64,000 nt of DNA from Prevotella sp. (GTDB lineage Bacteria; Bacteroidota; Bacteroidia; Bacteroidales; Bacteroidaceae), in the NCBI GenBank assembly GCA_015060485.1, contig SUYI01000006.1, positions 1 to 64,000 of the forward strand, in the 5' to 3' direction. The notes under the pieces were generated by a model. The model saw only the letters and a program-made list of their open reading frames with translations. It was not told the DNA's origin and made no database searches. Made by a program: the position numbers and the translations under genes. Every line of letters starts with the position of its first letter. Position 1 is the stretch's first letter. Below, piece by piece: positions 12,109-54,782 of the stretch.

Positions 12109-12116
12109 GTATATCG

Positions 12117-12187: not shown

Positions 12188-12194
12188 TTATCAG

Positions 12195-12267
12195 TGGAAC
12201 CTCGTGGAGTCGAACCACGTTCTGAGGATTTTCAGTCCTCCGCATACACCAAGTCTGCCAAAGTTCC
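12195..12267 (-). tRNA. tRNA-Phe(GAA)
   Basis: Third tRNA of the array. The anticodon loop CTGAAAA lies between GAGGA and TCCTC, and the acceptor is GGAACTT/AGGTTCC. The D arm is unusual for tRNA-Phe. Confidence 0.85.
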
Positions 12268-12275
12268 CAATATCG

Positions 12276-12347
12276 TTGCCTTAGATGGGTTCGAACCACC
12301 ACTTCCAGATTCAGAATCTGACGTGCTAACCGTTACACCATAAAGCA
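12276..12347 (-). tRNA. tRNA-Gln(CTG)
   Basis: Second tRNA of the array. The anticodon loop TTCTGAA lies between TCAGA and TCTGG, and the acceptor is TGCTTTA/TAAGGCA. It is a second glutamine tRNA reading CAG. Confidence 0.85.
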
Positions 12348-12354
12348 TTGATGG

Positions 12355-12429
12355 TGACTCGTGAGAGATTCGAACTCCCGACCCCGACGTTCGTAGCGTC
12401 GTACTCTAATCCAACTGAGCTAACGAGCC
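12355..12429 (-). tRNA. tRNA-Arg(ACG)
   Basis: First tRNA of the array, nearest the promoter. The anticodon loop CTACGAA gives ACG, expected to be edited to ICG. The acceptor is GGCTCGT/ACGAGTC. Confidence 0.9.
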
Positions 12430-23398: not shown

Positions 23399-24070
23399 TT
23401 ATTTGTAGCCCATAACTAACCCAAAACATTTTTCTATCGTTGTGATTCCTATGCCATTCAATGATGTCAGGGATGTCATTGATTTGATTTCAGAATCATT
23501 TAATGCATTATCAATTGTTTGAATCTGTTTTGCAGTTCTTATTCCTGCTTTCTTTTTCTCAGTTGGGGAAAGAGAATTCCATTTCTTTTTGAATTGCTCA
23601 AATAATTCGTCAGGAGCGTCAGGATCATATTCATATATTTCAATGGGTATATCACACCTCTCCAAATATTTGTGCATCAAATTTAATACCTCAATCTTAT
23701 CGAGGCCACCATTATGAGTTCCTAAAAGAGGGAATGAAATGGATGTAATACCCTTTTCTTTATAAGAATCTACGAATTTTTGAAGGCCGAGCTCCAAATA
23801 TTCCATTTTACTTGGATATTTCCAATGAATTTTGGTCGGAAAATTAAGTACCCATTGAGAATCGTTATCTGGCTTATATAGCCAAAGTTTTCCAACTGTC
23901 AGTTGCTTGTTCTGACAAAACACTTTATATTTCTCATACATTTCAGGGTAACGAAGACGAAATCCTAAAGCAACGCCTTTACCCATAACACCGACACAAT
24001 TCACTGTATTAACAATGGTCTGTTTGTCGGACTGGAAAATATTCCCTTTAATATACGTGATGTTACTCAT
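23399..24070 (-). CDS. macrodomain protein, DarG-like
   Basis: 223 residues. The macrodomain (residues 1-150) shows NTVNCVGVMGKGVALGF at about 20-36 and SFPLLGTHNGGLD at about 109-121, the ADP-ribose-binding loops of the DarG/TARG1 type. DarG removes thymidine-linked ADP-ribose from DNA and neutralises DarT. The C-terminal 70 residues do not look like the DarT-binding domain of E. coli DarG; they include a helix-hairpin-helix-like NGIGITTIEKCFGL. Its ATG overlaps the end of the DarT-domain gene by 8 bp, so toxin and antidote are translationally coupled in the usual order. Confidence 0.85.
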   Translation of the reverse strand: MSNITYIKGNIFQSDKQTIVNTVNCVGVMGKGVALGFRLRYPEMYEKYKVFCQNKQLTVGKLWLYKPDNDSQWVLNFPTKIHWKYPSKMEYLELGLQKFVDSYKEKGITSISFPLLGTHNGGLDKIEVLNLMHKYLERCDIPIEIYEYDPDAPDELFEQFKKKWNSLSPTEKKKAGIRTAKQIQTIDNALNDSEIKSMTSLTSLNGIGITTIEKCFGLVMGYK

Positions 24071-27000
24071 ATTGTTTTCTTAATTGCTCGTATCGTTCTT
24101 TATATACCGGTGACATAAGGAGAATTCCATATTCTTCATCAAACATCTTCTCTCCATTATCATAAACAAACATGTGTTCCAGATATTTAAGACCTCCTGC
24201 ATCTTTTGTGTATGAAGCGATGTCGCATTGATACAAAATCATCTTGTATTGTAACAATACAGAAGGCTCTATATTTAAAATCATAGCATCATCAGAAATC
24301 TCATTCTTGATGTCTTCTAATTTATATTGTCCCTTAAAATACAACCCCATATGGTCATTTTTGAGCAAACATTCCACAAGACTGAGTTCATATTTAGTAA
24401 ATGGAGAAGATTCCCAAAGCTCACGTATTAAGTCCAGTGTATGCTCATGTTGAGTCGGCCTGTCAATTGCTTTTCCAACATCATGCATAGCGAGAATCAC
24501 TCTCATGAGGTCAAGATTCATATACTCTGAATTGAATTTGAATATATACTTCTCAAATTGCTGACAAACCAATAAAGTGTGATTCTTTACAATATAGTGT
24601 CGAACACGAGTATTGTATAATTCTTCCAATTTTGGCATAATCAATTCAAGAGCAGAGATAAGTTCTTCTGGACTAAACTCATCGTCTTCAAAGCTTATAC
24701 CCAAATAATCTTCTATCACATCAGTCGATGTTATTAATGTTTCTTTCTCTTCTGGTGTGTATTGATAAATCAGCCATCTTGGTGAACGAGCGCTAGGGTG
24801 CATATTAACATAAAAAATATCAAAGCCATAATCACCAAGACTAACAGCAACAGAATTCAATAATTGAATAATGTTCTTCTTTTCGTTTTTTATATCCTTG
24901 GGATTAAGTACTTTAATTTTAGTTATATTGTCACTTTCAATCTGGAACATATAATCACCCTTGTATAAAGTTGAGATATTTATTGTTGACCCATCTGTGT
25001 CAAAACGTAATTGTGGGTTTTTGTGATCAAACACATCTTCCACATTATCGTATATTGCATAGATATTATTACTAATGGGATCTTCGTGGAATAATTCCTT
25101 CAGAATCTCAGCCTCTTCTCTATCATAGCAAATAATCTGAACGTTTGATATATCTGAAAAATCAAATTCACTTTTCACAAGAAACTCTTGCTGCCTTTTA
25201 TCCCTTTCTATTTGACTATAACCATAGCTATACAGATTCTTTGCATCAATGTGATCTGGCGATTCAGTCACTTTATATATAGTTGCCCAATTTGATTGTA
25301 AATTTCCTGTACTATATGAGCATAGTTTCGCTTTCTTTGACAACACTTCTTGTAGATCAAACTTAAAAAAAACCGGCATAGGACACATTGGCAAACCATT
25401 ATTGATAGCTTTACTGTAATACTTTGTATCAGTCCTGTCTTTTCCTAAGCATTCATTATAGAATTGAGTCTGTGTTCCTGTTCTATAATAGAATCGAGCA
25501 TAAGGATGGGCTTTTTCAGAACGATTAACAACAGCTCCTGCTGCATCATATTTCAGTAGTCCCAACTCTTTTGCCCTATTTCTGCTTAATATTTTCCTTG
25601 TACGTATAACCTCAATAGCATTATACAAATGCGTAAAATGATATATACACGGTTTGGGACGATATTCTCTTAGTATATTATAAAATTCCATAGAATTCAA
25701 CTCCTTAGAGAAAGATGCTTCAACTTCTGATGATTTGAATGCCGGATTCTCGGATAATGCAACCCAGTCCCACTTATCTCGATACTTGTCAACTAATGAG
25801 GGAGAGAATGGTATGGTGGTATTTCGTGAAATAACTTGCCAGTCCAATCTCTCAGTAAAGGTGTCAAGGGTATCTTCGTCAATGATAAAGTCTTGCCTTA
25901 AACAGATTAAGTGCCAGTTAAGTTGTAGCTCGAACTCAAGAAGATTATCTTTGGTTACAGCAAAACTATAGTTCTTTGATATATAATCCCAATCAAGATA
26001 TTCCCTGAAAGTTTTCAGCGCTTTAATATTTTGTAAGTCGATATGGGAACTGCGTGTAAGAATTGACCAATCCAAATGGTCTTTATATGCTATGATCACG
26101 TCATGACCTAATTCTTCTCTTCGTGAAATAGCCTGCCAATCAAGTTTTTTATCCTTTAAGATGCGCAATACTTGCATTGTTGGATAAAAATCTTTTCTTT
26201 GGCAGAATGCTTTCCAATCGACATCCTTGTCAAGAATCAAAGAAAGAAGCTCTTCTGTAAATACAATATCTTCTCTCTTTTGTAATGCTTTCCAGTTCCA
26301 ATTTCTGTCAACTAATGATATTATAAAATCAGTTGAATATGCTATTTCTTTTCTTATAGATAGATAATCCCAATCCCAATCAAATTCTTTATGGGTCTTT
26401 ATGAAATCACTATTGAACACACAATTCCTTCTGCGTGATAATGTCAACCAATCCCAGTTCCAGTCCGGATGACTTTCTACGAAGTTTTGAGTGAAATCGA
26501 AAGCATAATTTGATGAAATTGCAAACCAATCCCATGAATATGATGAAAGGCTTTCTAATTCTCCTTCATCGAATTTGACATCATCACGGTTAGAAAGAAC
26601 AGAGAAATCTAAATAATTAGCAAATCTCTGGATATGTTTTATCAGTTCTTGATTTTTCTTGGGATTATATCTAAAATAGGAACTGTTTTGTGAGAGGTAT
26701 GCCCAATCCCATTCATTTGTTCTTATTTGTAATACACTATCACACCAATTAATGGAATCTAGAGTTGACAAATATTTGAAGTTCCACTGATACTCTTCTT
26801 TTCCAAGAATCCTTTCAACAACTTCTATCCAATTTTTAAAGTCTTTAGTAACTTTTCGATCCCATCTTAATATTCTATTAAGAGATTTGGATGATGATAA
26901 GGCATTCCAATCAACATATACATGGTTATTGATAATGCTTTCCAGATAAGATTCTATGTCAAAATCGTTTCTGTTATATACATCATAATAATTCCAATTA

Positions 27001-29459
27001 TATGGTACAGAATAGAGAGAATCTGAACTGGCAGTACCCAATATTTCTGCTGTAGAGTATTGTTTTGTAAACAAGTCCCACAAAGGTTGTGACCTTTCAT
27101 CTTCTAGTTGAGATAGAATTATGGCAATTTGGCTTTTTATATTATTATCTCTATAATCGGCTTCTGTTAATACACCTGTCATAAGAGAGTTCCAATTCCA
27201 ATCATTATAATAATCTGTGAGATTATCAATGATAAAATCATGTTCCAACCTGACTGTTACAACATCCCAATTCCACCTATCTCTGTAATTAGCTAAGTAT
27301 TCTTGAATATCAACAACCTTAAGGTTTTCAGAAAGAAAACCCCAATCAAGTTTTTCAACCCAGCGTTTATCACCAAGTTTTGACATGTGCATTGTTGCAC
27401 AGAATCTTCTTGTTAAGATAATCCAATCCCAATTGGGTTCATTGAAGTTACTTTTTATTGTGGATTCTGAAACCTTTTCTGTTAGTACTGACCATAATGA
27501 ATTCTTTGTTACAAGGTCCCTGAAGTTAGAATCATTATATAAACGGTCTGAGAATTGTACAGAAAGAGCGGGAAGTAATATGTCAAGAGATAATTTGTCA
27601 ATGTGTGACTTGATAAAATTTAAATCTGATAGGACAATGTTCCTTTGTGATAAAATAGGCCATACCCACCCAAAATCCTCATTTAATTCGATGGACTTGC
27701 AGGATTGTATGTTCTCAGAAATATGAGTAAATCCTTTTTCAGAAAAGCTCCTTGTTTTGAAGTGATCAAACAAATCAATGTCCCAAACAATGTCGCTATT
27801 ACATTCTAAGCCTTCTGAATTATGAGAAGAATGCCAGGAAACGAACCCCATCTTTTCAAGCCACTCAATAAGATTGATAGACCACGCAAAATGAGCTTTG
27901 TTAGCATTAAAACAATCGTGCAAATACTCTTTTCTTTCAATAATGGCAAATGCAAATTCTCCAGAATCAACAAACCTCTCAGCCCATTCAGATGAGACAA
28001 ATGCTCTATTCATAATAGTATCCAGAAGGAGATAATCGCCCAAGCTATGAATGCTATTTAGTATGAAACCGAGATCTGCTATCGTAGATATTAGTTCCCA
28101 ATCCCATTTCCTATCAGGATATTCTGCAATTATATTAGGATGTGTGGTAAGGAATTTCTCGGTTGCGATATACATCTCAAACGGAATGCTCGAGATATTT
28201 TCAAGGATAAAATTATCATCCAATTTAGGAATAATCACAGGCCAATCCCAATCTACATCCTTATGTAATTCCGGGATAATTAGTAGTCTCTTGATCGTGT
28301 TTATACTCCTGCTGGAAGACAAAGACTCAAAATCCCAAGGGTATTTTACTGCGTTTTCTACAATGAAATTATCATCATAACGTTCCGAAAGAATAATCCA
28401 GTCCAGTAAATCCTTATATTTGTCAAGATATGATTTTAATGTTTTTATAGGGCACAGACTGGATATTTGAGTCCATTGAGTTCCATTCGCTTTCTCTGCT
28501 ATTTTGTCAAATAACGCTTTATCAGACCAATCCAAAGATTTACTATCAAGGAAATCATTAAGATCCCAGATGTCCATATATGGTTTTAAAGATGAGTAAT
28601 TTAGAATCTGGCCACTTTCACGAACGAGATACAAATATTCACCTATATGTATTTTATTATTTATATAGTTCTGGTTGGCTTCTTGGAATAGTAATTCATT
28701 AGTTTCTACCGATGGGGTATCACTATGAAATACAAGAGGATATTTAATAGAATTCAATTCATAAAGTCTGAAATCCACTTGGATTTCTCCCATACGGGCA
28801 TCTTTCGATTCCTCGGCAGTAAAAATATTAATTCCTATCTCTGATTGCAGGTTTAAACGGTCGACAAGTTCTGAAGATGTATTATATAATAAGTCTTCTA
28901 TGTCATCAACATTAAACAACTCAAAAGGCAGTTGCCTCTCATTTTGAATAGTAGATGTTATACCTAATGCATCTCTAAAAGGGAAATACAAATAATCATC
29001 AGCAGACTTTTGGGCTATGTCAAAATGCTGTATAAGTGGCATATAGCCACCAAAGAATGAGTGTTTAACTCCCTTTTCTAGTGCTAGGATTCCTAATGGA
29101 GATAAAGAGACTTGCTTTTCATGACGAATTATAAGTCCAAATGAAGAAACCTGTTCTAATAAACCCTCAAAAATCTTCTTTTCTCCTTCGTCGGCATATC
29201 TTTTGGGGGATGTATAATAATCATCTTCGACATTGAAGCCCATTATCTTCGCAAGTTGATTTTCATACAACTTGTTCCCATTGAACTCTAACGTTAGTAG
29301 AATTGCTTTATCCAGTTTCGTTAGCTCAGTCGTTTTGTAATAGGAAACGGAACAAGCGATCTTTTCAATCCTCCATCTCCTAAAATTGACATCGTTAGGG
29401 CGAGAAGCATAAATAAGTCTTCCTTGGTTATATATAACGTTACAGTCCATAATCTCCAT
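24063..29459 (-). CDS. giant repeat protein with DarT ADP-ribosyltransferase and HD domains
   Basis: 1798 residues. Residues 1-280 hold a winged-helix-like region. From about 310 to 1240 come roughly 28 imperfect repeats of about 33 residues with a core W/LDWxxLSxR (for example LDWQAISRREEL, FDWDWDYLSIRKEI), likely a solenoid of helices. From about 1265 to 1445 is a DarT-type domain (DUF4433): PCIYHFTHLYNAIEVI, AHPYARFYYRTGTQTQFYN and the probable catalytic Glu in QQEFLVKSEF. A C-terminal HD domain has NHTLLV (about 1625), MHDVGK (about 1658) and CDIASY (about 1747). DarT modifies thymidine in single-stranded DNA with ADP-ribose using NAD+. The repeats could sense a phage product or other operon proteins. 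It overlaps the upstream helicase gene by 20 bp. Confidence 0.8.
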   Translation of the reverse strand: MEIMDCNVIYNQGRLIYASRPNDVNFRRWRIEKIACSVSYYKTTELTKLDKAILLTLEFNGNKLYENQLAKIMGFNVEDDYYTSPKRYADEGEKKIFEGLLEQVSSFGLIIRHEKQVSLSPLGILALEKGVKHSFFGGYMPLIQHFDIAQKSADDYLYFPFRDALGITSTIQNERQLPFELFNVDDIEDLLYNTSSELVDRLNLQSEIGINIFTAEESKDARMGEIQVDFRLYELNSIKYPLVFHSDTPSVETNELLFQEANQNYINNKIHIGEYLYLVRESGQILNYSSLKPYMDIWDLNDFLDSKSLDWSDKALFDKIAEKANGTQWTQISSLCPIKTLKSYLDKYKDLLDWIILSERYDDNFIVENAVKYPWDFESLSSSRSINTIKRLLIIPELHKDVDWDWPVIIPKLDDNFILENISSIPFEMYIATEKFLTTHPNIIAEYPDRKWDWELISTIADLGFILNSIHSLGDYLLLDTIMNRAFVSSEWAERFVDSGEFAFAIIERKEYLHDCFNANKAHFAWSINLIEWLEKMGFVSWHSSHNSEGLECNSDIVWDIDLFDHFKTRSFSEKGFTHISENIQSCKSIELNEDFGWVWPILSQRNIVLSDLNFIKSHIDKLSLDILLPALSVQFSDRLYNDSNFRDLVTKNSLWSVLTEKVSESTIKSNFNEPNWDWIILTRRFCATMHMSKLGDKRWVEKLDWGFLSENLKVVDIQEYLANYRDRWNWDVVTVRLEHDFIIDNLTDYYNDWNWNSLMTGVLTEADYRDNNIKSQIAIILSQLEDERSQPLWDLFTKQYSTAEILGTASSDSLYSVPYNWNYYDVYNRNDFDIESYLESIINNHVYVDWNALSSSKSLNRILRWDRKVTKDFKNWIEVVERILGKEEYQWNFKYLSTLDSINWCDSVLQIRTNEWDWAYLSQNSSYFRYNPKKNQELIKHIQRFANYLDFSVLSNRDDVKFDEGELESLSSYSWDWFAISSNYAFDFTQNFVESHPDWNWDWLTLSRRRNCVFNSDFIKTHKEFDWDWDYLSIRKEIAYSTDFIISLVDRNWNWKALQKREDIVFTEELLSLILDKDVDWKAFCQRKDFYPTMQVLRILKDKKLDWQAISRREELGHDVIIAYKDHLDWSILTRSSHIDLQNIKALKTFREYLDWDYISKNYSFAVTKDNLLEFELQLNWHLICLRQDFIIDEDTLDTFTERLDWQVISRNTTIPFSPSLVDKYRDKWDWVALSENPAFKSSEVEASFSKELNSMEFYNILREYRPKPCIYHFTHLYNAIEVIRTRKILSRNRAKELGLLKYDAAGAVVNRSEKAHPYARFYYRTGTQTQFYNECLGKDRTDTKYYSKAINNGLPMCPMPVFFKFDLQEVLSKKAKLCSYSTGNLQSNWATIYKVTESPDHIDAKNLYSYGYSQIERDKRQQEFLVKSEFDFSDISNVQIICYDREEAEILKELFHEDPISNNIYAIYDNVEDVFDHKNPQLRFDTDGSTINISTLYKGDYMFQIESDNITKIKVLNPKDIKNEKKNIIQLLNSVAVSLGDYGFDIFYVNMHPSARSPRWLIYQYTPEEKETLITSTDVIEDYLGISFEDDEFSPEELISALELIMPKLEELYNTRVRHYIVKNHTLLVCQQFEKYIFKFNSEYMNLDLMRVILAMHDVGKAIDRPTQHEHTLDLIRELWESSPFTKYELSLVECLLKNDHMGLYFKGQYKLEDIKNEISDDAMILNIEPSVLLQYKMILYQCDIASYTKDAGGLKYLEHMFVYDNGEKMFDEEYGILLMSPVYKERYEQLRKQYE

Positions 29460-32400
29460 AATTAATTACTTCCCCATTTTCATGAGACATTATTGTATTG
29501 TAAACATTGTCATATATCTCTTTCGTCCGAAACAGTTTACTGTCACCCACGATTATAAGTAATCGTTTAGCTCGAGAAAGAGCCACGTTCAGACGATTTG
29601 GCGATTGTGCAAATCCTAATTCGGATTGTGCGGGATATCCTTCTTTATACCTTACAAAGTTTGGCTTCTGGCCGCGCTCAGTTTGTATAAGATGGCTTCT
29701 TACCATTGAAACGATAATAATATTGCGTTCCATTCCTTGGAATCGGTCTACAGTACTTATGCGAATAGGCAGTTTCTCTTTGTCAAAACCGCGCGCCATA
29801 TCACGTAACAGCCTAAGTTGTTTACCGTAGAATGATATTAACCCGATTTGCTTGTCTTCTATATTATCCCACTTGTTATTATACGCATGGAAAGATGGCG
29901 ATGAATAAATATCTGATAATACTTTGCGTATCACCTCAACTTCTCCGTAGTTAACTCTTGAAGTACCATCAAGCATTTCAGGTGTATCTGTATCAATCCA
30001 TAAAACATGTGTGTTGGGCGTAATTGGACCAGCTGTAATACCATGATACCTTGATGCTCCATTATTAATGAAATCAGGATCATCTATTCCTAAATCCACT
30101 GGATTTACCAACCCGCATTCCAATCCACCATCTTCTTTATAAAATTGTTTGATTACTTCGTTAATTGCAGGATGCATTCTAAACTGATAGTTAAATACAC
30201 CTTTCAGCGTTGGGTCAATTTGGTTAAATAACCTCTCGAAATGTGATATTTCAAGTTTCTTGAAATTGCGGGAAACAAATAACTTCAAACTTTCCAACTC
30301 CTTTTTCTTGCTTTCATCCTTTTCCCTTTTGATGAGATAATCAAAGGAATTCATAAATGATTCCAAAGACAACATTGGAGGAAGTTGCCTGTGGTCACCA
30401 ATAATCACATTTTTCTTTCCATAGATCAACGGTAATGATAGCTCTGCAGGGGTTGCTTTACTTGATTCATCTTGTATAACGACATCAAAACTTATTGGAG
30501 GGTTGTAGTTATTCCTATTTCCATATATCTTTCTGTAAATCTTGTAGAATGCTGTTGGAATGAATTTGCTCTTTTTCCCGGTATTTTCCATCGACTCAGT
30601 AAAAATAATGTTCTTTTGACCAATGGAACTACATGTTGCGCCAATAACATTGCAGTTGGCAATATAATTGTTAAAGAATAACTTTCGGATATCGTCAGAT
30701 GGATTATTTAGTAAGTCGCTCCACAATTCAAATGCTTCTTCTGGCATTTGTTTGTTATCAGCGCGATTACGTATGTTTTCCATCCAATTTATCAAAATCA
30801 ACTTTTCTGGAGATTCATATACGTATTCGTCTTGTAATTCATCTTCATCGTCATCATCAATAAATGAATCGGAGAAATCTTCCCCTTTAGCCCAACGTTC
30901 CATAGCCGTGTATGAAAATTGGAGTCCCTCAGTTTCTAATCTCGACTCGTCACCAATACGAACGGGCTTCACGAGATTATGCTGGTTATTGACAATTCTG
31001 TCTATAGCATTGTCTACTGCCAAATTGGTTTCGGAAGTAAGCAAAACACGACATTGTGGATTTTGCCTGATATGCTGCCATATTAATTCTGCAATGGCTG
31101 TAGATTTACCGGTTCCAGGAGGCCCCTGAATAATGGCAAGATCTGGTGCAAGAATGGCTTTAGCAATAGCATCTTTTTGAGGTTCATTATTGTTTATCTT
31201 GTTATTTAAAATATGTTTTCCTATTTCTTGCTTCTGAAGCCTGATATTCTCTTCGAAGTCTTTGATACCACCAGCCTGTGAAGCATCAAAAATGAATGTT
31301 CCTAATGATGGATTTTCAATATCAATACCAGAAATAATTCGATTTAGAGAATCTTTTAATCGTGCCAGTTTTTCTAAATCTCCCGACAAATCGGGCTCAA
31401 CACGATCTACTATGGTCCCTTCTACCAATTGTTTTGTCGTTTCATAATTGTCCCCAGAAATGTCAAAAACAAGTTCTGGATAGGATGCAGTACGAATAAG
31501 CTTACCAATTTTCAAATCGCCAATCATAAAGTCTGCACCTTTTAGTTCACGAGCTGCGTCCATACGTTCTTCATTTCTACTCTGAATATCATGGAAGAAC
31601 AGCAACTTAACCATGTTCGCAGGAACATCGTCAAATGTGAATTGATAGCGGTTAAGATCAAAAGAATTAAGTTTGTTGACTAGTAATGTTTTGAACGTAA
31701 GTAAATCATCAAAAGACTCAAATTCTTTAGAGAATGCTAATTCTGAACCCTTCTTTACCAATTCAATTTTCAAGTCCTCGAAAGAATTGTGAAGTTCTTC
31801 CATGACACCAGCCAGCTCAGCTTTCTTATATTCTATATCAAAATTGCATTTATGCCCTTTTTTGAAAAGACTATAATTAATATATGGATATTTGTGACTA
31901 AGTTCTGTTAGAATAGTAGTTAGACTTTGTTCTTTCCAATTAAAATCAATTCCAATACTAGAACCGTCTGATGCTACAGAGATGCCATGTTGTTTTTGGA
32001 AAATAAGATGTAACTGATCATTAAACCGATCAAGTTCATCTGTTGAAGCCCAGCTTTTGTTATCTTCATATTTGTAATAATAGGTATCTTCAAAAGTATA
32101 ACTATCCTCGCCAAAGATTCGTTTTATACTTTTATTACATAATGAATATTCAAGATCAACATCTGAGATTGTCCTTTTGACAGTATATTGCTTTGGCTTT
32201 CCAGTTTCGTGAATTTCTTCATGCTCATCATTTGCATCCACACAATCCGATAACTCTTCTACAAATCTCTTATTGAATATGATGACACCATCCACAGGCT
32301 TCGGAAGGTCTGATTTGTTTTCATCCCAGTCATAGGACTTAAGAGCCGATTCTTTCATTATGAACCTAAACTCTACACGATATAGTCTCATGTCGAAAAT

Positions 32401-33990: not shown

Positions 33991-33994
33991 GTTT

Positions 33995-34729
33995 TCAACT
34001 TCTATGACTGATTATAAAATCCTTACCTGTCATCACTTTATAGCCAGAGGCAATAAATCTTTGTTTGTCAGAATCGGAAAAGGGCATGAACACGATTTTC
34101 TCTGATTCAATACCCAGTTCTGCTTCTGCACATACTTTTGTCCCTTCCATAAGAGCGTAGCCTCCCTCATGATTAAAAGGAATGTTATGTTCATAAAGGT
34201 ACTTTACAACTTCGTGTATTTCATTACTGAAGTTTTCAAGTATCTGAGATATATTGGTATTATCTTTATATTGTTTCTTCTGCCAAAGATGACAATCCCT
34301 TTTATAAGCCATAATAAACAACTTTGGAAGGAAAACATTACATAAAGCAACACATCCAACAAAAAGAGGAGCGACTTTTTCCGCGCCTAATCCTGCATGG
34401 CCACATCCCACAGCTGTTACAAGGAATTGTAATTCGGTATGGTTACGAGCATATAATTCGAAATCAGCAACATACTGTTGGAGTTGGCTAATTGAAACGC
34501 CCCGGGTCGGCAAAGCATATGCTCTACCTGTCGGCCCATTCGAAACGCCAACCTTTGCGCCAAAACTTTTTGCCGCAAGACCCGCAGCGCCTAGTTTTTG
34601 ACTTCCTTGAAGGTCTGTACCGAATACAAACACCTGAGACTGACGTAGGCTTGATATCCTCTCAGGCGTGTATCGGTTGTAGCCGTTCACAACGTCATTC
34701 AGAAGTTTATAGTATAATTCTTCCATCAT
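33995..34729 (-). CDS. A1S_2505-type protein with a C-terminal domain shared with the DUF1998 helicase
   Basis: 244 residues. Residues 25-125 are the A1S_2505-type domain (QVFVFGTDLQGSQK, RAYALPTRG, FLVTAVGCGHAGLG), homologous by eye to the C-terminus of the protein at 8880. Residues 160-240 (EIHEVVKYLYEHNIPFNHEGG, CAEAELGIESEKIVFMPFSD, FIASGYKV) match the last 80 residues of the 2095-residue helicase. The E-x-E and K positions suggest a PD-(D/E)XK-like nuclease or degenerate fold. It could be an effector or adaptor that docks on the helicase complex. It is 12 bp after the RecQ-like gene and 4 bp before the S1 fusion gene. Confidence 0.7.
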   Translation of the reverse strand: MMEELYYKLLNDVVNGYNRYTPERISSLRQSQVFVFGTDLQGSQKLGAAGLAAKSFGAKVGVSNGPTGRAYALPTRGVSISQLQQYVADFELYARNHTELQFLVTAVGCGHAGLGAEKVAPLFVGCVALCNVFLPKLFIMAYKRDCHLWQKKQYKDNTNISQILENFSNEIHEVVKYLYEHNIPFNHEGGYALMEGTKVCAEAELGIESEKIVFMPFSDSDKQRFIASGYKVMTGKDFIISHRS

Positions 34730-34741
34730 GACTAATCTGAT

Positions 34742-38446: not shown

Positions 38447-38450
38447 AACT

Positions 38451-43271: not shown

Positions 43272-43282
43272 AATCTATCCTT

Positions 43283-46159: not shown

Positions 46160-46180
46160 TCCAAACAAGATTATTTTTTG

Positions 46181-48256
46181 TTATTTGAGTGACTTTAAGA
46201 AAGAAGATGGCTCGCCACATCCAGTAATTAGGACACGGTTCACGGCACGAGTCAGTGCAACGTACATCAAAGAACGCTGCTGTTGATCAATCTGCCGTTT
46301 TTGCTCATCATCCAATTCTTGATAATTGGATGGGTGGTACGGTATAGTGTTACGACTTACATCCGTTAAGATTACTACGCGGAATTCCAGACCTTTCATA
46401 CGATGAAATGTATATGCCCGAACACCATCGATGTCACCTCCATTCCATCGACGGCAAGGAATCGAAGCTTGGCGGGATAGATAGTTTGCCGTACTATCCA
46501 CCATATCATTTCGATACGCAGCTACACAGATGTCATCAGGACGGATGCCCGCATCAAGACATTGCCTGATGTATGTAGCTATAGCATCCAATTCCTGATT
46601 CTTATTTGGATACATCTGATATATGGGGGCTTCTCCATGGAGGAGAGATACATATCCTCTGAGGTTTTCTGCATTGCCGTCAAAATCGTCAACTTCCATG
46701 CCAGAAACGATGCTAACGGCATGTTTCTTTATTTCTTCTGTAGTACGGTAATTAACACGTAAGCGGCGACTGCGACCTGCTATATTGATCCCAGCACTCT
46801 TGAAATTCAGTTTTCTTGAATAGATGCGTTGATATGGATCTCCAACAAGGAACAAATCATTTGGACCAACTGGAGTTAAGGCACGCAAGAATCTGAGTTG
46901 TGGGTTGGACAAGTCTTGTATCTCGTCTGCAATAACATGGGTATAAGGACGCTCATCGTTTTCGTTCAGCCATCCTGTGACCATATTGAAGAGCTCGTCG
47001 CGCTCAACAAGGTTTTGCATGCTCTTTTTCTCTGTGTATTTTTCCACCATCTCCCAGACATTCTTTCTTTGCTTACGGGAAAGAGCACTGCCTTGCCCTG
47101 TTCGTGGTGTTTTAAGATACTGTTCCAATGATTTAACATCATGGTAGAGAATGATGTCCTGATATTCGGACTGAAGGAAATCTGCTGAGAACTCTGACAT
47201 ATTATCCATTACAACCTCCTCCCATAAAGCATGGATTCGGCGTTCATCGAGAAGGACATTAGTCCCTTTCCCGATAATGTTTTTGGCCTTGGCAATATCC
47301 AGAGAAACCTTATCAACAGTATCAAGAACATATCTCTGAGACGGGACCTCCATTTGTTGGATTGAACCTATCAGATTATCAACCAAAGAACGATTATATG
47401 CCGTATAAAGGACCTTTCCTTGTCCTTCATAAGTCTCTGTACACAGGCGCTTCAGCCGATGTATAGCAGCAACCGTCTTTCCAGTTCCTCCACCTCCACT
47501 TACCTTAAGAGAGCCAGAGTAATTCCCTTCAACAATACGACGCTGAGAGGGATGCAAGAATATCATCCACTGCTTTAAGTCTGCTTTTAATATGTGCTCC
47601 AAATCTTCGTCATCAGTGATATCGATAAAGCGACGGCGATTATTCTCACTTTGAAGTTGTTTCTCATGCTCCTCTTCCTTGCGTTTACCTTCTTCTACAT
47701 CGTAGATAATTCGATTAATGTCTCCAGAATCGAGAAGGTAATATAGATTCTCCCATGCATCTTGTGGTATCTCATTCTCATATTTGTCAAGTTCATCAAG
47801 ATCCTTTATAGACTTAACAAGAGGTAATAATTCCGAAGGAACACCAATACGCAACAGCTGTTCATCTGAGTATGGGGAAAAAGCAGTAGCTTCAGTACTA
47901 TTAGCTATAGCCTGACGTTCTTGTACGTGTTCAACAGAAATGATTTGAAATGAATTGATTTGCTCATTCCAAATGAATTTCTTGTTCTCAGCCCACTGCA
48001 TAGCTTCGTCATGATGGTCGATATGCAGCAAACAATAATCCTCGCCATTAACGACACCGATAATCATTCTATACTCAAGCCCCAAACGTGCAGTTCTTAG
48101 GTTCTCGTCTTTAAACGACGCTATCGACTCCAAATTGATGGCTGCTGACTTGGGGTTCTCCTTAAACTTACGTCTGAACTCCTTAAATTTGTTTTGTACA
48201 TCGCGCGGGAGGCTCATAATGCTATCCCAACATGATTCTTCAAGAAATAGTCTCAT
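46181..48256 (-). CDS. UvrD-like helicase with RelE-fold N-terminus
   Basis: 691 residues. The first 95 resemble a RelE/ParE toxin fold (RDVQNKFKEFRRKFKENP, LEYRMIIGVV, HIDHHDEAMQWAENKKF). After a linker comes an SF1A helicase: VSGGGGTGKTVAAIH (about 254), VIADEIQDLSNPQ (about 444), then GDPYQRIY and MYVALTRAVNRVLIT. The fused toxin-like domain is known in a group of UvrD proteins; it may bind nucleic acid or ribosomes, or simply act as a structural module. The domain's catalytic residues cannot be confirmed. It is 6 bp after the DUF1998 helicase gene. Confidence 0.88.
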   Translation of the reverse strand: MRLFLEESCWDSIMSLPRDVQNKFKEFRRKFKENPKSAAINLESIASFKDENLRTARLGLEYRMIIGVVNGEDYCLLHIDHHDEAMQWAENKKFIWNEQINSFQIISVEHVQERQAIANSTEATAFSPYSDEQLLRIGVPSELLPLVKSIKDLDELDKYENEIPQDAWENLYYLLDSGDINRIIYDVEEGKRKEEEHEKQLQSENNRRRFIDITDDEDLEHILKADLKQWMIFLHPSQRRIVEGNYSGSLKVSGGGGTGKTVAAIHRLKRLCTETYEGQGKVLYTAYNRSLVDNLIGSIQQMEVPSQRYVLDTVDKVSLDIAKAKNIIGKGTNVLLDERRIHALWEEVVMDNMSEFSADFLQSEYQDIILYHDVKSLEQYLKTPRTGQGSALSRKQRKNVWEMVEKYTEKKSMQNLVERDELFNMVTGWLNENDERPYTHVIADEIQDLSNPQLRFLRALTPVGPNDLFLVGDPYQRIYSRKLNFKSAGINIAGRSRRLRVNYRTTEEIKKHAVSIVSGMEVDDFDGNAENLRGYVSLLHGEAPIYQMYPNKNQELDAIATYIRQCLDAGIRPDDICVAAYRNDMVDSTANYLSRQASIPCRRWNGGDIDGVRAYTFHRMKGLEFRVVILTDVSRNTIPYHPSNYQELDDEQKRQIDQQQRSLMYVALTRAVNRVLITGCGEPSSFLKSLK

Positions 48257-48262
48257 ATGTCT

Positions 48263-51200
48263 TTATTTTTTAATTGCTTCAATATTGAAAGTTTCTGGAT
48301 CGTATACTGAATAACCGGCAGCGGTAGCTGCGTCATCATCGTCAGAGAAGAAAACGAATTTGTATTGCTCAGAGACAAGGTCTGCTTCGCATACTTTGCG
48401 ACCACTTTCATCAAAAATGCCTACTCCAGCAGTATGATTGAATTCTATTCCTTGCTTAAGTAGTTGAATGACAATGTCATGGAGCTCATCATCAAATGCG
48501 CTTGCAATCCTTTCGAATTCTGCATCTTCGTCAATATCTGCGGCATTTGTATTTAACACTTCTATGCCCTGATACATGGAGATTAGGTCGTATACTCGCC
48601 AGAAATCCTGCCATTGTTTCTCAGGGAGTCCTTCATCTGTTTGAAAATTCTCAGGTACATTGAACTGGGTTTTTAATTGTTTGTTGGCCATATCAATCGT
48701 AACCTTTAATGAAGCCCATGGTTGGGATGGGAACAATTCGAAAGAGGAGTTTAGTGCAGGCTGCAAACCTACAACATACATCAATAGCTCATCCTTTATC
48801 TTTTTTGTTTGCCAAAGATTGGCTAAAAGATAGAACAGGCGTAACATAGAATTGTGTTGAGAAGTCCACGGGTTAGGTGGGAGCTTTTGAAGAATTGAAT
48901 TTTGATGTCGCTCGAAAACACTGTCCTTATTATTCTCTTTGTCTTCAAATAGATTCATATCGTTCCAAGAAAGAGTGTAGGACATATATCTGTCTGATGC
49001 TTCTATGCTTTGACGTTTACGAAAATCCTTATTAAAAACGTTGTGTTGAGATGATGCATGGTAACTGTAACCATCCATATAGATGGCAATGCTCCGCAGA
49101 TGGTCAAAAGCTACTTCATTCCATTGGTGACCATCATTATGTTTCATCATTACCGGGCGAATGAGAAAATCCGGCTCTGTATAAAACTCAACTCCTTTGG
49201 ATTTGTTGAGAACATATTGGGGTATTATCACATATGAGATAAGATTTGAACCATCATCATATGATAACTTATACTGCTGTCGATAAGACAAGTCATCTTT
49301 CTCAAATGACCACGAGTGGGTACCATCTGCTTGGTTGTCCTGTTGTATATAATTCTGGATGGCATAAATAAAGCGCTTCTCCAACTCACTTTCTTCCATG
49401 CCACCATCTTGGGAGAGGATACCTAATTTACCTATTTGTTCCCAGTTACTTGTTCCGTTTTTCTCATCATAGCAGTTATCAAGAATCTTACGGAATAATT
49501 CGTCAGCGCGTTTCCTGCTTAGTTTATCTTGTATTCGTTGATTGGAATAAGTAAAAATACAATGATAACATCCATCTTTCCCTTCTTCCTTACACTTACA
49601 GGTATGAATTCGCTCCCAAGCATTTTGAAGAATCTTTTCAAATTCTGTCGGATTACATATCTGTGCAAGATAACCTGTTCCGCCTGGTATCGTATCGTAA
49701 AGGATAATATAGCGGTCAAACCTATGAGTCTTATCATTATAGGTTTTATATTTCTCGATTTTTATGTGATCGGGATTCCCTTCAAAGTAATCACGTAGAC
49801 CAAGACCTATACCGGCAGCAAACATATCTGTGGTAGCTTCAGTATCTACTTCTTGAACAGGGAGAAGTACCTTTATTGCCTCTGTATGGAACTTATGATA
49901 CAAATATACCTCCTCAAAATATTCATCCGATTTATCTTTATAAGCCTGATCTTTATGCTTACAGAAAGAGTAGTGTAGTTCTTTGGGGTCTGTCACGTTC
50001 AAATCATGTGATTTGCTTGTAGACTTGCCACAGTAACGACAAGTAACAAATCCTTTTACGGGAACATGTTCACGTTCGTTGATTTGCAGATCGCGGGCAT
50101 CGCGTTGTTCGGAATCACCAAGATTGACATCGATGACATCAACACTTTTGCAGTATTCAATACCAAAGGGAATTGTTCGAAGTCCACTGGCATTAATACT
50201 TCCATCAAAAATGAAATGCTTTGATATCAAATAATAATTACTTTCTCTGTCATCACTATTATCACCTGTTACGGCATCTTCCTTCTTGTCGCTAGAACGG
50301 ACAACATCCATTCTTACAAAGTTATGGACATTAACGGGAGTTCCAAAATCTTGATCTCCACATATTGGACAAGTCTGTTCATGGTCAGCAGACTCTATTT
50401 CTATATGATCACATTTAGAGCAGAAACGCATTGGTACCAGTGTCTCTCTATCGCCGGAACTCCAATTAAGAGTAGATAAACCAGAAACATTCATCTTATA
50501 TTTCTGTGCATAGAAATGATTACCAGGAGCTAATTCCGATAAAGCGGACGATGCAGAACGTTGAACTTCAATTTCCTGAATGATATATTTTGATTGCTTA
50601 TCATTGACAGGAGGACGATGAATAATTGTAGCGTCAAGTGTTACTCCCTGTTCTGGGAAAGCATAGTTGGGCAACAATCCTGAATTGGTCATAAATTCAA
50701 GAACCTGTTGATTGACAAGGGTTCGTCTTGTCTTAAAGAGAATGCTTTTCTGGAGTTCTAATTCAATTCTCTCTTCATCTGTTTCTGCCCAACCAGAACT
50801 TTTAATAGTCTGACTAATATCATTGATACGTTCCGTCATTCCCATAAAGGTGTTGTACAGCTTTTTAAATTCTTTCTTTATAAGATTGACGAACATTCCA
50901 TCACGTAACATGGATGACAAACTATCAAGAGCTTCTTCTTGCTCTATTTTGTATTGGGATCGGAATAGGACTTCCAGTTCTTTGCCGTTCTCTATTATAT
51001 AAGAGATAATACGATTGTAAAAAGAACAATCATTTGTCTCGTATGTGGCTATTGGCAACATAAACACCCTTGATGGGATAATATTGTTTTCTGGATCTAA
51101 TCCTGTCCAGGTATCAAGGCAGAAGGCAAAATAGTGGCGACGGAGAATATCAACTGCAGACAGATAACATCCTGGTGTGTTGATTTTCCCCTGCATCATC

Positions 51201-54200
51201 TCTTTAGGTTCTGCATAATAGAATAAATCATGATATTCGTTACGGGCGAAATCGACTATTAGAGAAGCACCGCTCTTTCGGCCAGCGCGTCCAACTCTCT
51301 GGATGAAGTTAGATGGCATGGGCGGAATAGAGGTGTTGACAGCTACGTTCAAATCACCTATATCTATACCCATTTCAAGCGTAGAGGTGGCTACCATAGC
51401 ATTGATATTGTTCTTACTCTCGTTGCTCTTGAACTGGTATTCTATACTCTCTCTCTTCTTGCGATCAAGTATTCCTGTATGCTCATGAGCATAGATTCTT
51501 GGGGACAAGGCGCGATTATATACATTGTAATAATAGCGTTGTATTTCTTCGCGTTTTATGTCATTATATTGGCCAGGGCATTTGAAATCAATACAAGGAG
51601 TATTTTCTGAGATTTCATCTTGTTCTGCAACACACATAACAGATGTGCATTTATAGCATCCTATATGCTTTACTTTTTCGGATATAAATATCGCAGACGG
51701 TGAAATACAGTAGTTTTGCTCCTTTTCCCGTTCGCTTTGTTTCAATATTCCAACTTGTGACAGTGTCTCAAATAATTTGGAGAAGAAATCGTTATAAAGT
51801 GAATCTGGTATATCGTCCATTAGCATTTCGTTGATGGACAAATCCTTGGTGAAGCATTTCAGGAAATAATGCTTATACCAATTTGTTGTACGTGGATTCA
51901 CAAATGTACTGTCAAGAATATCACGAGAACTGCTCAAACGCTGTGTGGTAATTACCTTTGGATAGCGTGATTTCTTACCAAATCTATAGCATAAGAAATA
52001 TGGAGATCCCTTTATGTTACTAAGATTAAATGTGTTAGATTCTTCCTCTCTGAATTTGGTTAGGAATGGATGATCAACAGCTCCTCTTATACGCATACGA
52101 TGAAGAAGTCCATTCAAGAATTGAATAAAATGATTACGTGTAATTCTATCAAGTTTCACACTTGCTAACCACGGCTTCATTAACTCGAAAACTTCGCGTA
52201 ATTTATTTTCATCAAAGAAGGTTGCAGATGCTCCTGACTTTTCAAGAGTACGTCCAATCCTTGCGTTTAAACCAAATTCAGAAGTGATTTCCCATCCAAG
52301 GCGCAAATCAAGTTGCTCGATGAACTTTTTCTGGTAGCCATTTTTACCTTGCCTATAGTTATTGTCTAAGTCAATATCACCCAATCTGTCTGGTGGAAAG
52401 AATCGATATACATAATCTTCCTGATTCTCTGAGAAGTGACATTTTTCTTTCCAAAAGACAACGAACTCTTTCTCTAAGTCCTCCAAACTAATTGGTAAGC
52501 GTCCATCGTCTGCAAGTTTACGAATACAGTTTTGAAGGGCGTTTCGGAATGAGAAACGGTAATTTCTTGCTTCGAAGAAACCTGCTTGATGTGCCGCATC
52601 CTGAACACTATTTGTAAATGCAAGTATCTTGCGACTGCTTTCATTTTCATTATCCAGATCAGATGACATTACCTGGCTGATGGCGACTGAAGCGAGGGTC
52701 GCTACTTTTGTACCGATTATTGCTAAACTGTTTTCGGAACAACATGAAGGACATATTTCTTTAAACTTGGGGTTCTTGTTTTTTTTGCCAGCTTCGACTT
52801 TCCGAATTGCCAAAACGTGAACTCTGTTATCTGATTCTTCCCCTTGATTTTGATATATATGCAAATCGGATGGGTCAATCCACCAATCAAATACTTCACC
52901 TTTGTATTCATCGATAGGAAAGTGATCCGAGCTATAAAGGCTTATAAGATAACAATTTTCATCATTATCAATAAACTTCATAGAAGTCTTGCCCGGATCT
53001 GTTTCAAGACATTGGGAGTTTTTGGTTTTATATCCAATCCAACCACTAGCCCCACATTCTCTACAGAAATAAGCAGGAAGAGCTCGTTGGTCTTTTTCTG
53101 TTTTATCAATGTCCTTCTTCCAAGTAAACTTTATTTCATTCGAAACAACACGCAAGAACCCGGACAATTCGCGCAACCACAGCTGAACCTGGAGATATAG
53201 GAATGGGAATTGTGGCTTTGTTCCTTTTTTTGCAGCAGCAATGAGGGCAAATAAAGAATTTAGCACTGCCAATCTTGGGAATTCAACATTCTTGTATCGT
53301 GTCTCTTGAATGGAGCGGAACTGTTCATTGATGTCTGCAAGCTTAACTATCAGGTCAGAGACTGTAATATATGAATCGTAAGTAATGTTTGTAATATCTC
53401 GGATTATTGTCAACTTAGACAACCCAACAGCCAAACCATCATTTTGAAGTCCCCATAATTTAGTTTGACGTTCTATGTATATGTCATAATTATCATCTAA
53501 TCGAAACTTTGTATCATTCAAAGTGTCAATTGATGGTATAAAGTTATTATCTGCATCATGTGTAAAACCTTCTACTTTAATTCTATCCTCAACTATCACA
53601 GACTCTTCATCAAAGTACTCTCCAAACACATCTGATGCATAATTTCTTAAGAGTTTGGATGCATTAGGTCCGCTTCCAATGGTCGCAGATGTACCAATCG
53701 GGCATAACATGCCCTCTTGTAGCTTCAGCTTTAGCTTTAAGCGGCGAATTAGATTCGCAACATCTGTTCCTTGGGCACCATCGTAGGTATGCAACTCATC
53801 CAATACTAGGAACTGTAGCATGGAAGAATCTGCAAAATTGTGCTCCCAAATGCAAGCATAGTTATTTTTCATGAGGGCATAATCCAACATCTTAAAATTC
53901 GTTAGGATTATATCGGGTGGAGTTGCAAGGATTTGCTCTCTGTCTTCGATTATGTTATGTTCTCCCATCATTATGGGATACTTCTTTTCTCGATCTTTAC
54001 CTTCACCAATAAACAAACCGGCTGTTACATTCCCTCTTAATCTTTCATCTGCATAAATAGCTTCGGCTAATCGCTTAGCTTGATCGCTTGCAAGAGCATT
54101 CATTGGGTATAGGATGATGGCCTTTATTCCTTCCTTGTTCGGGTGGTTCTTGCGCCAATGATAACAGTAATCGAGTAGTGGGTATAAGAAACATTCCGTC

Positions 54201-54550
54201 TTACCTGAACCAGTACCTGTGGTCAAAAGCGTTGGCTGTGGGTGATGCTCATTCTTCGTAGAAAGACGAGAGAAAGAAAGATATTGATGCTTATACAGCA
54301 TGTAACCGGGAACAACATCTAACAAATCCCTACCGTCACTTTCAGCGGAGGTGAAAGGGGTTTTCAATGAAATATATGGCTCGTGTGAAATACCATACTT
54401 CTCATTTTGTATGAACTTGTAAAAGGCATCACTTATTTCCTTTTCTTTGAAATTAAAGGTTGCCTTAAGGTATTCTATGATGGCTTCTCTTGTTTCGTAT
54501 GCCTGTTGGAGTGGAAGCATATAATTCTCTATTAAGTTAGTAATTATCAA
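48263..54550 (-). CDS. giant DUF1998 helicase (DruE/DrmA-like)
   Basis: 2095 residues. The helicase core has TTGTGSGKTECFLYPLL (about 110), VLDELHTYDGAQG (about 250), SATIGSG, EMGIDIGDLN and QRVGRAGRKSG (about 1088). Several CxxC pairs (CRECGASG, CSKCDHIE, CPICGDQD, CRYCGKST) mark zinc-binding inserts, and DUF1998 with CYHCIFTYSNQ is near 1640. A Vsr-like segment IAIYMDGYSYHASSQHNVF (about 1825) follows. The last 80 residues match the protein at 33995. It starts with TTG, whose last two bases fall in the TGA stop of the XRE gene, giving strong coupling. The size matches Druantia DruE; the fold also recalls DISARM DrmA. DNA unwinding or surveillance of foreign DNA is inferred. Confidence 0.85.
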   Translation of the reverse strand: MIITNLIENYMLPLQQAYETREAIIEYLKATFNFKEKEISDAFYKFIQNEKYGISHEPYISLKTPFTSAESDGRDLLDVVPGYMLYKHQYLSFSRLSTKNEHHPQPTLLTTGTGSGKTECFLYPLLDYCYHWRKNHPNKEGIKAIILYPMNALASDQAKRLAEAIYADERLRGNVTAGLFIGEGKDREKKYPIMMGEHNIIEDREQILATPPDIILTNFKMLDYALMKNNYACIWEHNFADSSMLQFLVLDELHTYDGAQGTDVANLIRRLKLKLKLQEGMLCPIGTSATIGSGPNASKLLRNYASDVFGEYFDEESVIVEDRIKVEGFTHDADNNFIPSIDTLNDTKFRLDDNYDIYIERQTKLWGLQNDGLAVGLSKLTIIRDITNITYDSYITVSDLIVKLADINEQFRSIQETRYKNVEFPRLAVLNSLFALIAAAKKGTKPQFPFLYLQVQLWLRELSGFLRVVSNEIKFTWKKDIDKTEKDQRALPAYFCRECGASGWIGYKTKNSQCLETDPGKTSMKFIDNDENCYLISLYSSDHFPIDEYKGEVFDWWIDPSDLHIYQNQGEESDNRVHVLAIRKVEAGKKNKNPKFKEICPSCCSENSLAIIGTKVATLASVAISQVMSSDLDNENESSRKILAFTNSVQDAAHQAGFFEARNYRFSFRNALQNCIRKLADDGRLPISLEDLEKEFVVFWKEKCHFSENQEDYVYRFFPPDRLGDIDLDNNYRQGKNGYQKKFIEQLDLRLGWEITSEFGLNARIGRTLEKSGASATFFDENKLREVFELMKPWLASVKLDRITRNHFIQFLNGLLHRMRIRGAVDHPFLTKFREEESNTFNLSNIKGSPYFLCYRFGKKSRYPKVITTQRLSSSRDILDSTFVNPRTTNWYKHYFLKCFTKDLSINEMLMDDIPDSLYNDFFSKLFETLSQVGILKQSEREKEQNYCISPSAIFISEKVKHIGCYKCTSVMCVAEQDEISENTPCIDFKCPGQYNDIKREEIQRYYYNVYNRALSPRIYAHEHTGILDRKKRESIEYQFKSNESKNNINAMVATSTLEMGIDIGDLNVAVNTSIPPMPSNFIQRVGRAGRKSGASLIVDFARNEYHDLFYYAEPKEMMQGKINTPGCYLSAVDILRRHYFAFCLDTWTGLDPENNIIPSRVFMLPIATYETNDCSFYNRIISYIIENGKELEVLFRSQYKIEQEEALDSLSSMLRDGMFVNLIKKEFKKLYNTFMGMTERINDISQTIKSSGWAETDEERIELELQKSILFKTRRTLVNQQVLEFMTNSGLLPNYAFPEQGVTLDATIIHRPPVNDKQSKYIIQEIEVQRSASSALSELAPGNHFYAQKYKMNVSGLSTLNWSSGDRETLVPMRFCSKCDHIEIESADHEQTCPICGDQDFGTPVNVHNFVRMDVVRSSDKKEDAVTGDNSDDRESNYYLISKHFIFDGSINASGLRTIPFGIEYCKSVDVIDVNLGDSEQRDARDLQINEREHVPVKGFVTCRYCGKSTSKSHDLNVTDPKELHYSFCKHKDQAYKDKSDEYFEEVYLYHKFHTEAIKVLLPVQEVDTEATTDMFAAGIGLGLRDYFEGNPDHIKIEKYKTYNDKTHRFDRYIILYDTIPGGTGYLAQICNPTEFEKILQNAWERIHTCKCKEEGKDGCYHCIFTYSNQRIQDKLSRKRADELFRKILDNCYDEKNGTSNWEQIGKLGILSQDGGMEESELEKRFIYAIQNYIQQDNQADGTHSWSFEKDDLSYRQQYKLSYDDGSNLISYVIIPQYVLNKSKGVEFYTEPDFLIRPVMMKHNDGHQWNEVAFDHLRSIAIYMDGYSYHASSQHNVFNKDFRKRQSIEASDRYMSYTLSWNDMNLFEDKENNKDSVFERHQNSILQKLPPNPWTSQHNSMLRLFYLLANLWQTKKIKDELLMYVVGLQPALNSSFELFPSQPWASLKVTIDMANKQLKTQFNVPENFQTDEGLPEKQWQDFWRVYDLISMYQGIEVLNTNAADIDEDAEFERIASAFDDELHDIVIQLLKQGIEFNHTAGVGIFDESGRKVCEADLVSEQYKFVFFSDDDDAATAAGYSVYDPETFNIEAIKK

Positions 54551-54747
54551 TAGACCCGTACTAATTCTGCAATCTCAACATCTAATAGCTTTGCTATCTT
54601 CATGAGAGTTTCAAGTGTTGGCTGACAACTATTAGTACACCATTTCGATACAGTTGCGGGATCTTTCCCTAACTGTTCAGCCAACCATTTGTTAGTCCGC
54701 TTTTTATCTGCCAGAACAACTTTTATCCGGTTTATATCTTTATCCAT
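54547..54747 (-). CDS. XRE-family HTH regulator
   Basis: About 66 residues from the ATG at 54747: a Cro/CI-type HTH with NKWLAEQLGKDPATVSKW and LMKIAKLLDVEIAELVRV. It is the first gene of the defence operon, directly before the giant helicase, and probably represses the operon promoter. The longer in-frame start at 54786 lies upstream of the -7 box and is not used. Confidence 0.85.
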   Translation of the reverse strand: MDKDINRIKVVLADKKRTNKWLAEQLGKDPATVSKWCTNSCQPTLETLMKIAKLLDVEIAELVRVY

Positions 54748-54773: not shown

Positions 54774-54782
54774 GCAAATATA
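54774..54782 (-). promoter_or_regulatory. promoter of the defence operon
   Basis: TATATTTGC on the minus strand, about 27 bases before the XRE ATG; a weak TTTCG occupies the -33 place. It is the only consensus promoter seen for the ten genes down to 23399. Confidence 0.65.

Follow-up and report, generated by a model that had tools for sequence, protein, structure and literature searches.

The defence system ARMADA Type II (Bell et al. 2025 preprint) is described with a strict gene order, ArmA-B-C-D, in the main text of PMC12458937, which presents ArmD as a GajB-like UvrD helicase and names its N-terminus RelE-like. DarT of E. coli modifies single-stranded DNA (ssDNA) and stalls replication, according to the abstract of PMC7003065. 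In the E. coli RptR-Type I RMS-DarTG2-M48 (RRDM) island, DarTG2 lies within a Type I operon whose leading gene encodes the small repressor RptR, and the island is active against phage (PMC12255303). Here, a 64,000-nucleotide stretch of a Prevotella sp. genome (assembly GCA_015060485.1, contig SUYI01000006.1, positions 1 to 64,000; hereafter the window) was analysed, in which a minus-strand run of ten open reading frames (ORFs), here called g0 to g9, extends from 54747 to 23399. Sequence comparisons suggest, with a probability of roughly 0.6, that this run is an ARMADA Type II-like set (g1-g4) and a separate DarT cassette (g7-g9), co-transcribed under one helix-turn-helix (HTH) regulator (g0) and directed against phage. 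Among the titles and abstract openings of open-licence papers, and in passages of PMC9503650, no description of this cassette or of ARMADA with DarT was found. The main text of PMC12458937 contains none of the terms ADP-ribos, DarT, RecQ, UPF1 or Bacteroid, and "macro" occurs in it twice, both times in a company name.

An operon-like run of ten genes

The first-pass annotation of the window had proposed a single compact run in which a DarTG-type module is joined to a methylase/helicase core. This description held: ten genes share one strand, with gaps from g0 to g9 of 26, 6, 12, 11, 4, 12, 4, -20 and -8 bp. These values take g1 and g5 from the ATG inside the listed TTG ORF and g3 from its TTG; with an ATG three codons further into g3, the g2-g3 gap is 21 bp. 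The ceiling of 21 bp given earlier applies to all gaps except g0-g1, whose 26 bp depends on the start codon (g1 encodes 2085 residues from the ATG, the length of database protein P0241, and 2095 from the upstream TTG). Since the gaps between g1 and g9 are at most 12 bp, they leave no room for a terminator, and those in the 34-39 kb stretch (4, 12 and 4 bp) are too small to hold one. The only two minus-strand hairpins between 34 and 38 kb, at 35910 and 35013, both lie inside g5. On both strands together, 13 terminator-like sites were counted against 11.7 expected in 36-55 kb, and 17 against 8.2 expected in 23-39 kb.

A pattern scan placed a -7 type Bacteroidota promoter element, TATATTTG, at 54775..54782 on the minus strand, 35 bp 5' of g0. 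Within 200 bp upstream of the ten starts, TAnnTTTG occurs once, before g0 (54782), and not before the other nine; all other members of the 19 such elements on the minus strand of the run lie elsewhere. Elements resembling the -7 type were also seen by eye 5' of many other g0-family genes. The ten genes are likely to be transcribed together under one small HTH regulator.

Homology of g1-g4 to ARMADA Type II

ArmA-D of E. coli ATCC 8739, the locus studied in PMC12458937, served as references, and assignments were based on Pfam and PADLOC matches with pairwise alignment. All genes given below lie on the minus strand. The first of the four, g1 (48263..54520), encodes a YprA-family helicase with an MZB/DUF1998 domain and is homologous to ArmC (28.7% identity over 1931 residues). 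It is followed by g2 (46181..48256), a UvrD/GajB-type helicase homologous to ArmD (31% over 702 residues, aligned from residue 2), g3 (43283..46168), an SNF2/BrxHII-type helicase homologous to ArmA (34% over 972 residues), and g4 (38451..43271), a PglX/Eco57I-type DNA methyltransferase homologous to ArmB (36% over 1508 residues). The N-terminal domain of g2 aligns with that of ArmD; its RelE-like label is that of the ARMADA paper. The residues mutated in the NCTC 12900 proteins are given in the main text of PMC12458937 as K136 and D236 of ArmA, K110 and D234 of ArmC, K266 and D454 of ArmD, and G605 and N971 of ArmB. Their letters and numbers are identical in the ATCC 8739 proteins, and all eight have identical counterparts in the aligned g3, g1, g2 and g4 proteins, respectively. 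In addition, g1 contains Vsr-like nuclease motifs at 49058..49393 (the E in ESELEKRF, PDF and MDGYSYH), and the E/PDF/DG motifs are conserved with ArmC in the alignment; the assignment of a Vsr-type nuclease, which combines the ARMADA paper (PMC12458937) with motif reading, is putative.

By alignment, g1-g4 are ARMADA Type II homologues in a permuted order, so the earlier remark that no named system with this set was known is not supported. The families named in the first-pass annotation are all present: DEAD/MZB(DUF1998), UvrD, SNF2, Eco57I methylase, RecQ-type DEAD, UPF1-type AAA_11/12, DarT and Macro. The four proteins align with their ARMADA counterparts along most of their length and keep the eight tested residues, but the window has the order C-D-A-B and six further genes (g0 and g5-g9) in the run.

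Two other systems were considered for membership. Druantia Type III contains a YprA-family helicase of similar size (DruE), but g1 scores 758 bits against ArmC and 233 bits, summed over three pieces, against DruE, and E. coli DruH was matched by none of the proteins; Druantia was rejected on these grounds. DISARM Class 1 likewise combines an SNF2 helicase with a PglX-type methylase. It was rejected because DUF1998 (MZB) is fused to the helicase in g1, with no DrmA/DrmB split, and no phospholipase D (PLD) nuclease (DrmC) is among the Pfam and PADLOC matches listed for g1-g9.

Proteins of the DarT cassette

The central protein of the cassette is g8 (24063..29459), in which 1798 residues comprise a tryptophan-repeat solenoid, a DarT ADP-ribosyltransferase domain and a putative HD domain. 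The DarT domain (residues 1273-1464; 25068..25643) was identified with Pfam (E 6.6e-17) and by structure match. An AlphaFold model of residues 601-1798 (mean predicted local distance difference test (pLDDT) 88, predicted template modelling score (pTM) 0.42) shows helices across the repeat region. Seven chains match it at E <= 0.001, every one of them a DarT, with Thermus DarT 7omv as the best (E 1.3e-6). Pfam DarT is present in 118 of 120 listed g8 homologues. Residues Y1273, H1274, F1275, H1277 and E1425 are invariant in all 17 aligned sequences, with E1425 as the predicted catalytic glutamate on the basis of its motif. The C-terminal HD-type motifs are putative; Pfam HD was found in only one of the 120 listed homologues (P0114), and the HD-type part is a separate ORF or is joined to g9 in three loci (L020, L021 and L023).

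The first cassette gene, g7 (29440..33990), encodes two S1 domains and a UPF1/IGHMBP2-type helicase, as assigned by profile and structure-sequence match. The S1 pair (positions 113-296) resembles ribosomal protein S1, with 179 bits to solved bS1, and could tether the helicase to RNA or ribosomes. The S1 stretch was matched over its full length in only two (L019 and L022) of 17 other cassette helicases; it is partial in L027 and a separate ORF in G539. The third gene, g9 (23399..24070), encodes a short DarG-type macrodomain protein of 223 residues, assigned by profile and by sequence match to the DarG macrodomains 5m3i and 5m31 (121 and 118 bits). It carries the NFPTK motif at residue 76, scores 186 against a cut-off of 250 with the NCBIfam DarG model, and is the likely antidote of DarT.

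Distribution of the cassette

Relatives of g8 were collected by a g8-alignment scan of GTDB genomes, which yielded 17 loci, and by g8 searches at three levels: order (393 genomes), family (399) and phylum (375), with partly overlapping draws. Repeat-only matches (ORFs of ~170-830 residues) were removed before counting, as were near-duplicates at >99% identity (L029 of L026, G642 of G109), at 100% (G726 of L027, G423 of L033) and by coordinates (G966 of L030). The remaining set comprises 21 distinct DarT-bearing loci, including the window. A g7-type helicase lies directly 5' of g8 in 18 of the 20 loci with sufficient contig (L033 is cut), the other two being L035, with a Sel1-DarT protein, and G1205. 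A g9-type gene adjoins g8 in 20 of 20 (L032 is cut), and in L031 g8 is split over two ORFs. The cassette resembles DarTG in having a DarT domain and a neighbouring macrodomain gene with the NFPTK motif, but it differs in that DarT is not free-standing but fused to a long solenoid and a putative HD domain, in the shortness of DarG, and in the UPF1-type helicase gene directly upstream in the 18 of 20 loci.

None of 97 pattern-matched stretches of viral contigs encodes a g8 relative by tblastn, and three phage records gave short repeat matches covering 8% of the query. Three plasmid records were matched, one of which (Hymenobacter, outside the 21-locus count) has a helicase-DarT pair among mobile-element genes. 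On this plasmid (L164:10727-19025) the pair lies close to recombinase and transposase genes, and its incomplete gene table includes no DarG-type gene.

Partners of the cassette

Partners were counted at the 13 loci where the sequence preceding g7 could be read for 4 kb or more, some of these stretches being just 4-6 kb long. An ARMADA-type set precedes the cassette in three: the window, B. gallinarum DSM 18171 (L019/L069-L070) and Zeaxanthinibacter (L078/L030), where it has the order YprA, BrxH, PglX, UvrD and is adjacent to the cassette. Type I restriction genes precede it in two. In Phocaeicola (L027), g0, a fused HsdM-HsdS, HsdR and g7-g8-g9 are contiguous; in Winogradskyella (L020/L116), HsdR was recognized by Pfam, HsdM and HsdS by eye farther upstream, with a Piwi-domain gene between. 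An AbiP2 reverse transcriptase lies upstream in two further loci, next to the cassette in L024 and separated from it by one ORF in G539; the PADLOC model scores are 546 and 526 bits (L024:4110-5762 and L117:2907-4580), and the two belong to different g8 lineages. In two loci a g0-type gene is the sole partner (L028 and contig 4 of G109), one has a NERD-g6 fusion (L034), and the neighbours at the last three (L026, L031 and G1034) are of other or unassigned kinds, G1034 having weak PglX- and BrxH-like matches on the opposite strand, 9-16 kb off. Defence operons probably acquire the three-gene set as a portable weapon. Besides HsdR, the Piwi-domain gene and the cassette, the Winogradskyella run (L020:963-16483) includes a free-standing HD-type gene.

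One explanation for such partners is a guard function, in which the cassette would watch the restriction front end and fire when phage anti-restriction proteins disable it, by analogy with PrrC and EcoprrI. In 5 of the 13 loci the cassette does lie inside or right behind modification-dependent operons, and DarTG2 is placed likewise in the RptR island (PMC12255303). Behind AbiP2 reverse transcriptases (L024 and G539) or without a partner, however, the cassette has no restriction enzyme to guard, and we consider this explanation unlikely.

In layout, the RRDM island (PMC12255303) appears to be the closest precedent: both loci place a small regulator first, and in both a single run combines DarT/DarG with restriction genes of a methylation-based type. 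The window differs in that its restriction module is ARMADA-type and not Type I, with no HsdM, HsdS or HsdR match in g1-g9, and in that its DarT is part of a 1798-residue solenoid protein with a helicase partner.

Because some upstream stretches were just 4-6 kb long, g1 was also searched for genome-wide in 17 cassette genomes (that of L025 left out). Only B. gallinarum gave a strong YprA match (1655 bits), followed by Phocaeicola, Zeaxanthinibacter and G109 with 81-90 bits; G109 has an ARMADA-like set on another contig, likewise behind a g0-type gene. In the g8 tree, the window and B. gallinarum fall in one clade (support 1.00), from which Zeaxanthinibacter is widely separated; ARMADA and the cassette are therefore likely to have become associated at least twice.

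The main rival explanation is shared transcription without contact between the halves: two independent defence systems would share a promoter, ARMADA restricting alone and the cassette acting like a toxin-antitoxin pair, both collected behind a handy regulator. It is favoured by the two cassettes that follow a g0-type gene immediately and lack any further partner (contig 4 of G109, and L028) and by ARMADA loci in which the slot between the PglX and YprA genes holds unrelated modules (G354 and G158) or none (G035). On the other hand, the link with methylation-based systems recurs (ARMADA-type 3/13, Type I 2/13) and is intimate, the genes being contiguous in L027 and the cassette lying inside ARMADA in B. 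gallinarum. Independence of this kind is a serious contender, although we place it below an even chance.

The variable slot, g5 and g6

In B. gallinarum, the slot between the g4- and g1-type genes contains SIR2 and g6-g9. In G354 and G158 it holds a TmtA-like protein and a UPF1-like helicase of 593-595 residues, the corresponding slot proteins being 33% and 45% identical to each other, and in G035 it is empty. The ARMADA and DarT halves of the locus do not always occur separately: they are interleaved in B. gallinarum and adjacent in Zeaxanthinibacter. The PglX-type methylase of B. gallinarum is split into two ORFs with a 4 bp overlap (L069:11684-16677), and that of G158 is likewise in two ORFs.

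Between g4 and the cassette, the window carries g5 (34742..38446), a RecQ/DpdF-type helicase (PADLOC C3a193, 548.6 bits), and g6 (33995..34729), which combines an A1S_2505-type domain with a C-terminal domain common to g1. The N-terminus of g6 matches A1S_2505 at 107 bits, and its predicted model (pLDDT 92) has TARG1 and other macrodomains as best Foldseek matches (best E 6.7e-3). As no Foldseek match passes E 0.001, the macrodomain-like fold of g6 is likely but not proven. The common C-terminal domain spans 48281..48529 in g1 and 34010..34264 in g6; the alignment scores 115, whereas none of 1000 shuffles exceeded 51, which confirms the sharing noted earlier.

This domain, the tight spacing and the presence of both halves in B. 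gallinarum could be taken to favour one obligate ten-gene system, as the first-pass annotation had argued. The domain carries no such weight, because the g1 and g6 families have it irrespective of co-occurrence (g1 of G354 and g6 of L034 each have it alone). In B. gallinarum SIR2 stands where the window has g5, and G079 has a g5 homologue (56%) whose surroundings, read over 16 kb, match neither ARMADA nor the cassette. Since the cassette and the ARMADA core mostly occur apart, a single obligate system was rejected as very improbable.

The predicted regulator g0

The gene g0 (54547..54747) encodes a predicted 66-residue XRE-type HTH regulator, recognized through weak NCBIfam HTH matches. A search for g0-type genes in ten genomes at E <= 1e-6 found 21 in six of them (L123-L143). 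Type I methylase or restriction genes lie within the next few genes at 8 of the 21 sites, C5 methylases nearby at four, ARMADA-type genes at three, a PglX/Eco57I-type methylase operon (BREX-like by eye) at one, the DarT cassette without a methylase at two, and none of these systems at the remaining three. A g0-type gene thus heads a methyltransferase-based system at 16 of 21 sites in the six genomes. The genomes had been picked for carrying cassette or ARMADA loci; with the six sites known from that choice removed, 12 of the 15 others head a methyltransferase or HsdR operon.

In the same six genomes, 8 of 13 N6_Mtase genes scoring >100 bits stand behind a g0-type gene. The share is far smaller for C5 methylases, with four sites against 23 matches listed; 14 of these 23 are in G407, where no g0 site is a C5 site. 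No shared palindrome that could serve as a common operator was found upstream of the 21 g0-family genes. The family looks like a general restriction controller in Bacteroidales.

A possible mode of action

Under the preferred reading, an ARMADA Type II-like set and a DarT cassette transcribed together against phage, g0 would keep the unit low until infection. The g4 methylase with the g3, g1 and g2 motors would distinguish unmarked DNA from that of the host and unwind or cleave the former, and this part would act directly and non-abortively, as ARMADA does in E. coli. Aided by the g7 helicase, the DarT of g8 would ADP-ribosylate ssDNA exposed on the invader, so that replication stalls; the ssDNA may be opened by the ARMADA motors. 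Host DNA would be cleared of ADP-ribose by the g9 protein, and perhaps also by the macrodomain-like g6, and the cell would survive.

Several results count against parts of this reading. The order C-D-A-B departs from the strict A-B-C-D, and the locus was filed for this reason as an order variant and not as a standard ARMADA Type II member; the order also varies elsewhere, being A-B-[insert]-C-D in B. gallinarum and B-C-D-A in G035. The DarT stretch of g8 alone found no match among PDB sequences, and the NCBIfam DarT equivalog scores 17.9 on g8 against a cut-off of 150. The g9 protein spans the first 196 of 338 DarG model positions and does not have the canonical C-terminal part. As no TTG was found at the scanned -33 spacing before the -7 element of g0, the promoter call is only partial. 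In Zeaxanthinibacter the YprA protein is ambiguous (234 bits to ArmC, 220 to DruE), and since the g8 proteins of the window and B. gallinarum share one clade, these two loci may represent a single association. Finally, 10 of 13 cassette loci show no ARMADA set in the readable upstream stretch, and three of the four genomes of the order with a YprA match >700 bits (G354, G158 and G035, the fourth being G000) gave no g8 match; all four are drafts, and two of the loci reach contig ends. From these two counts each half can stand alone, and the earlier claim of one system is not supported in the sense of an obligate unit.

A more specific version, put forward only tentatively, is that a portable DarT cassette is plugged into ARMADA, Type I or AbiP2 front ends, and that ARMADA helicases hand foreign ssDNA to DarT, under a common HTH controller. 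Two recent defence themes, ARMADA and DNA ADP-ribosylation by DarT, are joined here in one operon-like unit, whose DarT part is a re-usable cassette and more than a plain toxin-antitoxin pair. The locus raises a testable question, namely whether restriction-type motors supply the unmodified ssDNA that DarT attacks; if they do, a restriction-type system would become a DNA-ADP-ribosylating one. If one small HTH family does control the restriction, ARMADA and DarT operons of Bacteroidales alike, it would also offer a handle on how defences are kept in check.

Flanks and other features of the window

On the 5' side, the run is preceded by sbcC, which ends at 55029 and has a weak hairpin behind it; on the 3' side, a convergent HD-domain gene ends at 23372. 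In an empty-site comparison with 40 genomes of the same genus (its own included), sbcC was matched in 5 and the HD gene in 9. About 5 kb from the operon, 16994-18025 encodes a 343-residue protein of the Pfam S-adenosylmethionine lyase family (E 8.9e-15), a type known from phage anti-restriction. A Rep3-type replication initiator gene is located at 2154-3221, about 2 kb from a tRNA-His gene, and nine closely packed tRNA genes (Pro, Thr, Glu, His, Arg, Gln, Phe, Gln, Arg) occupy 11647-12429.

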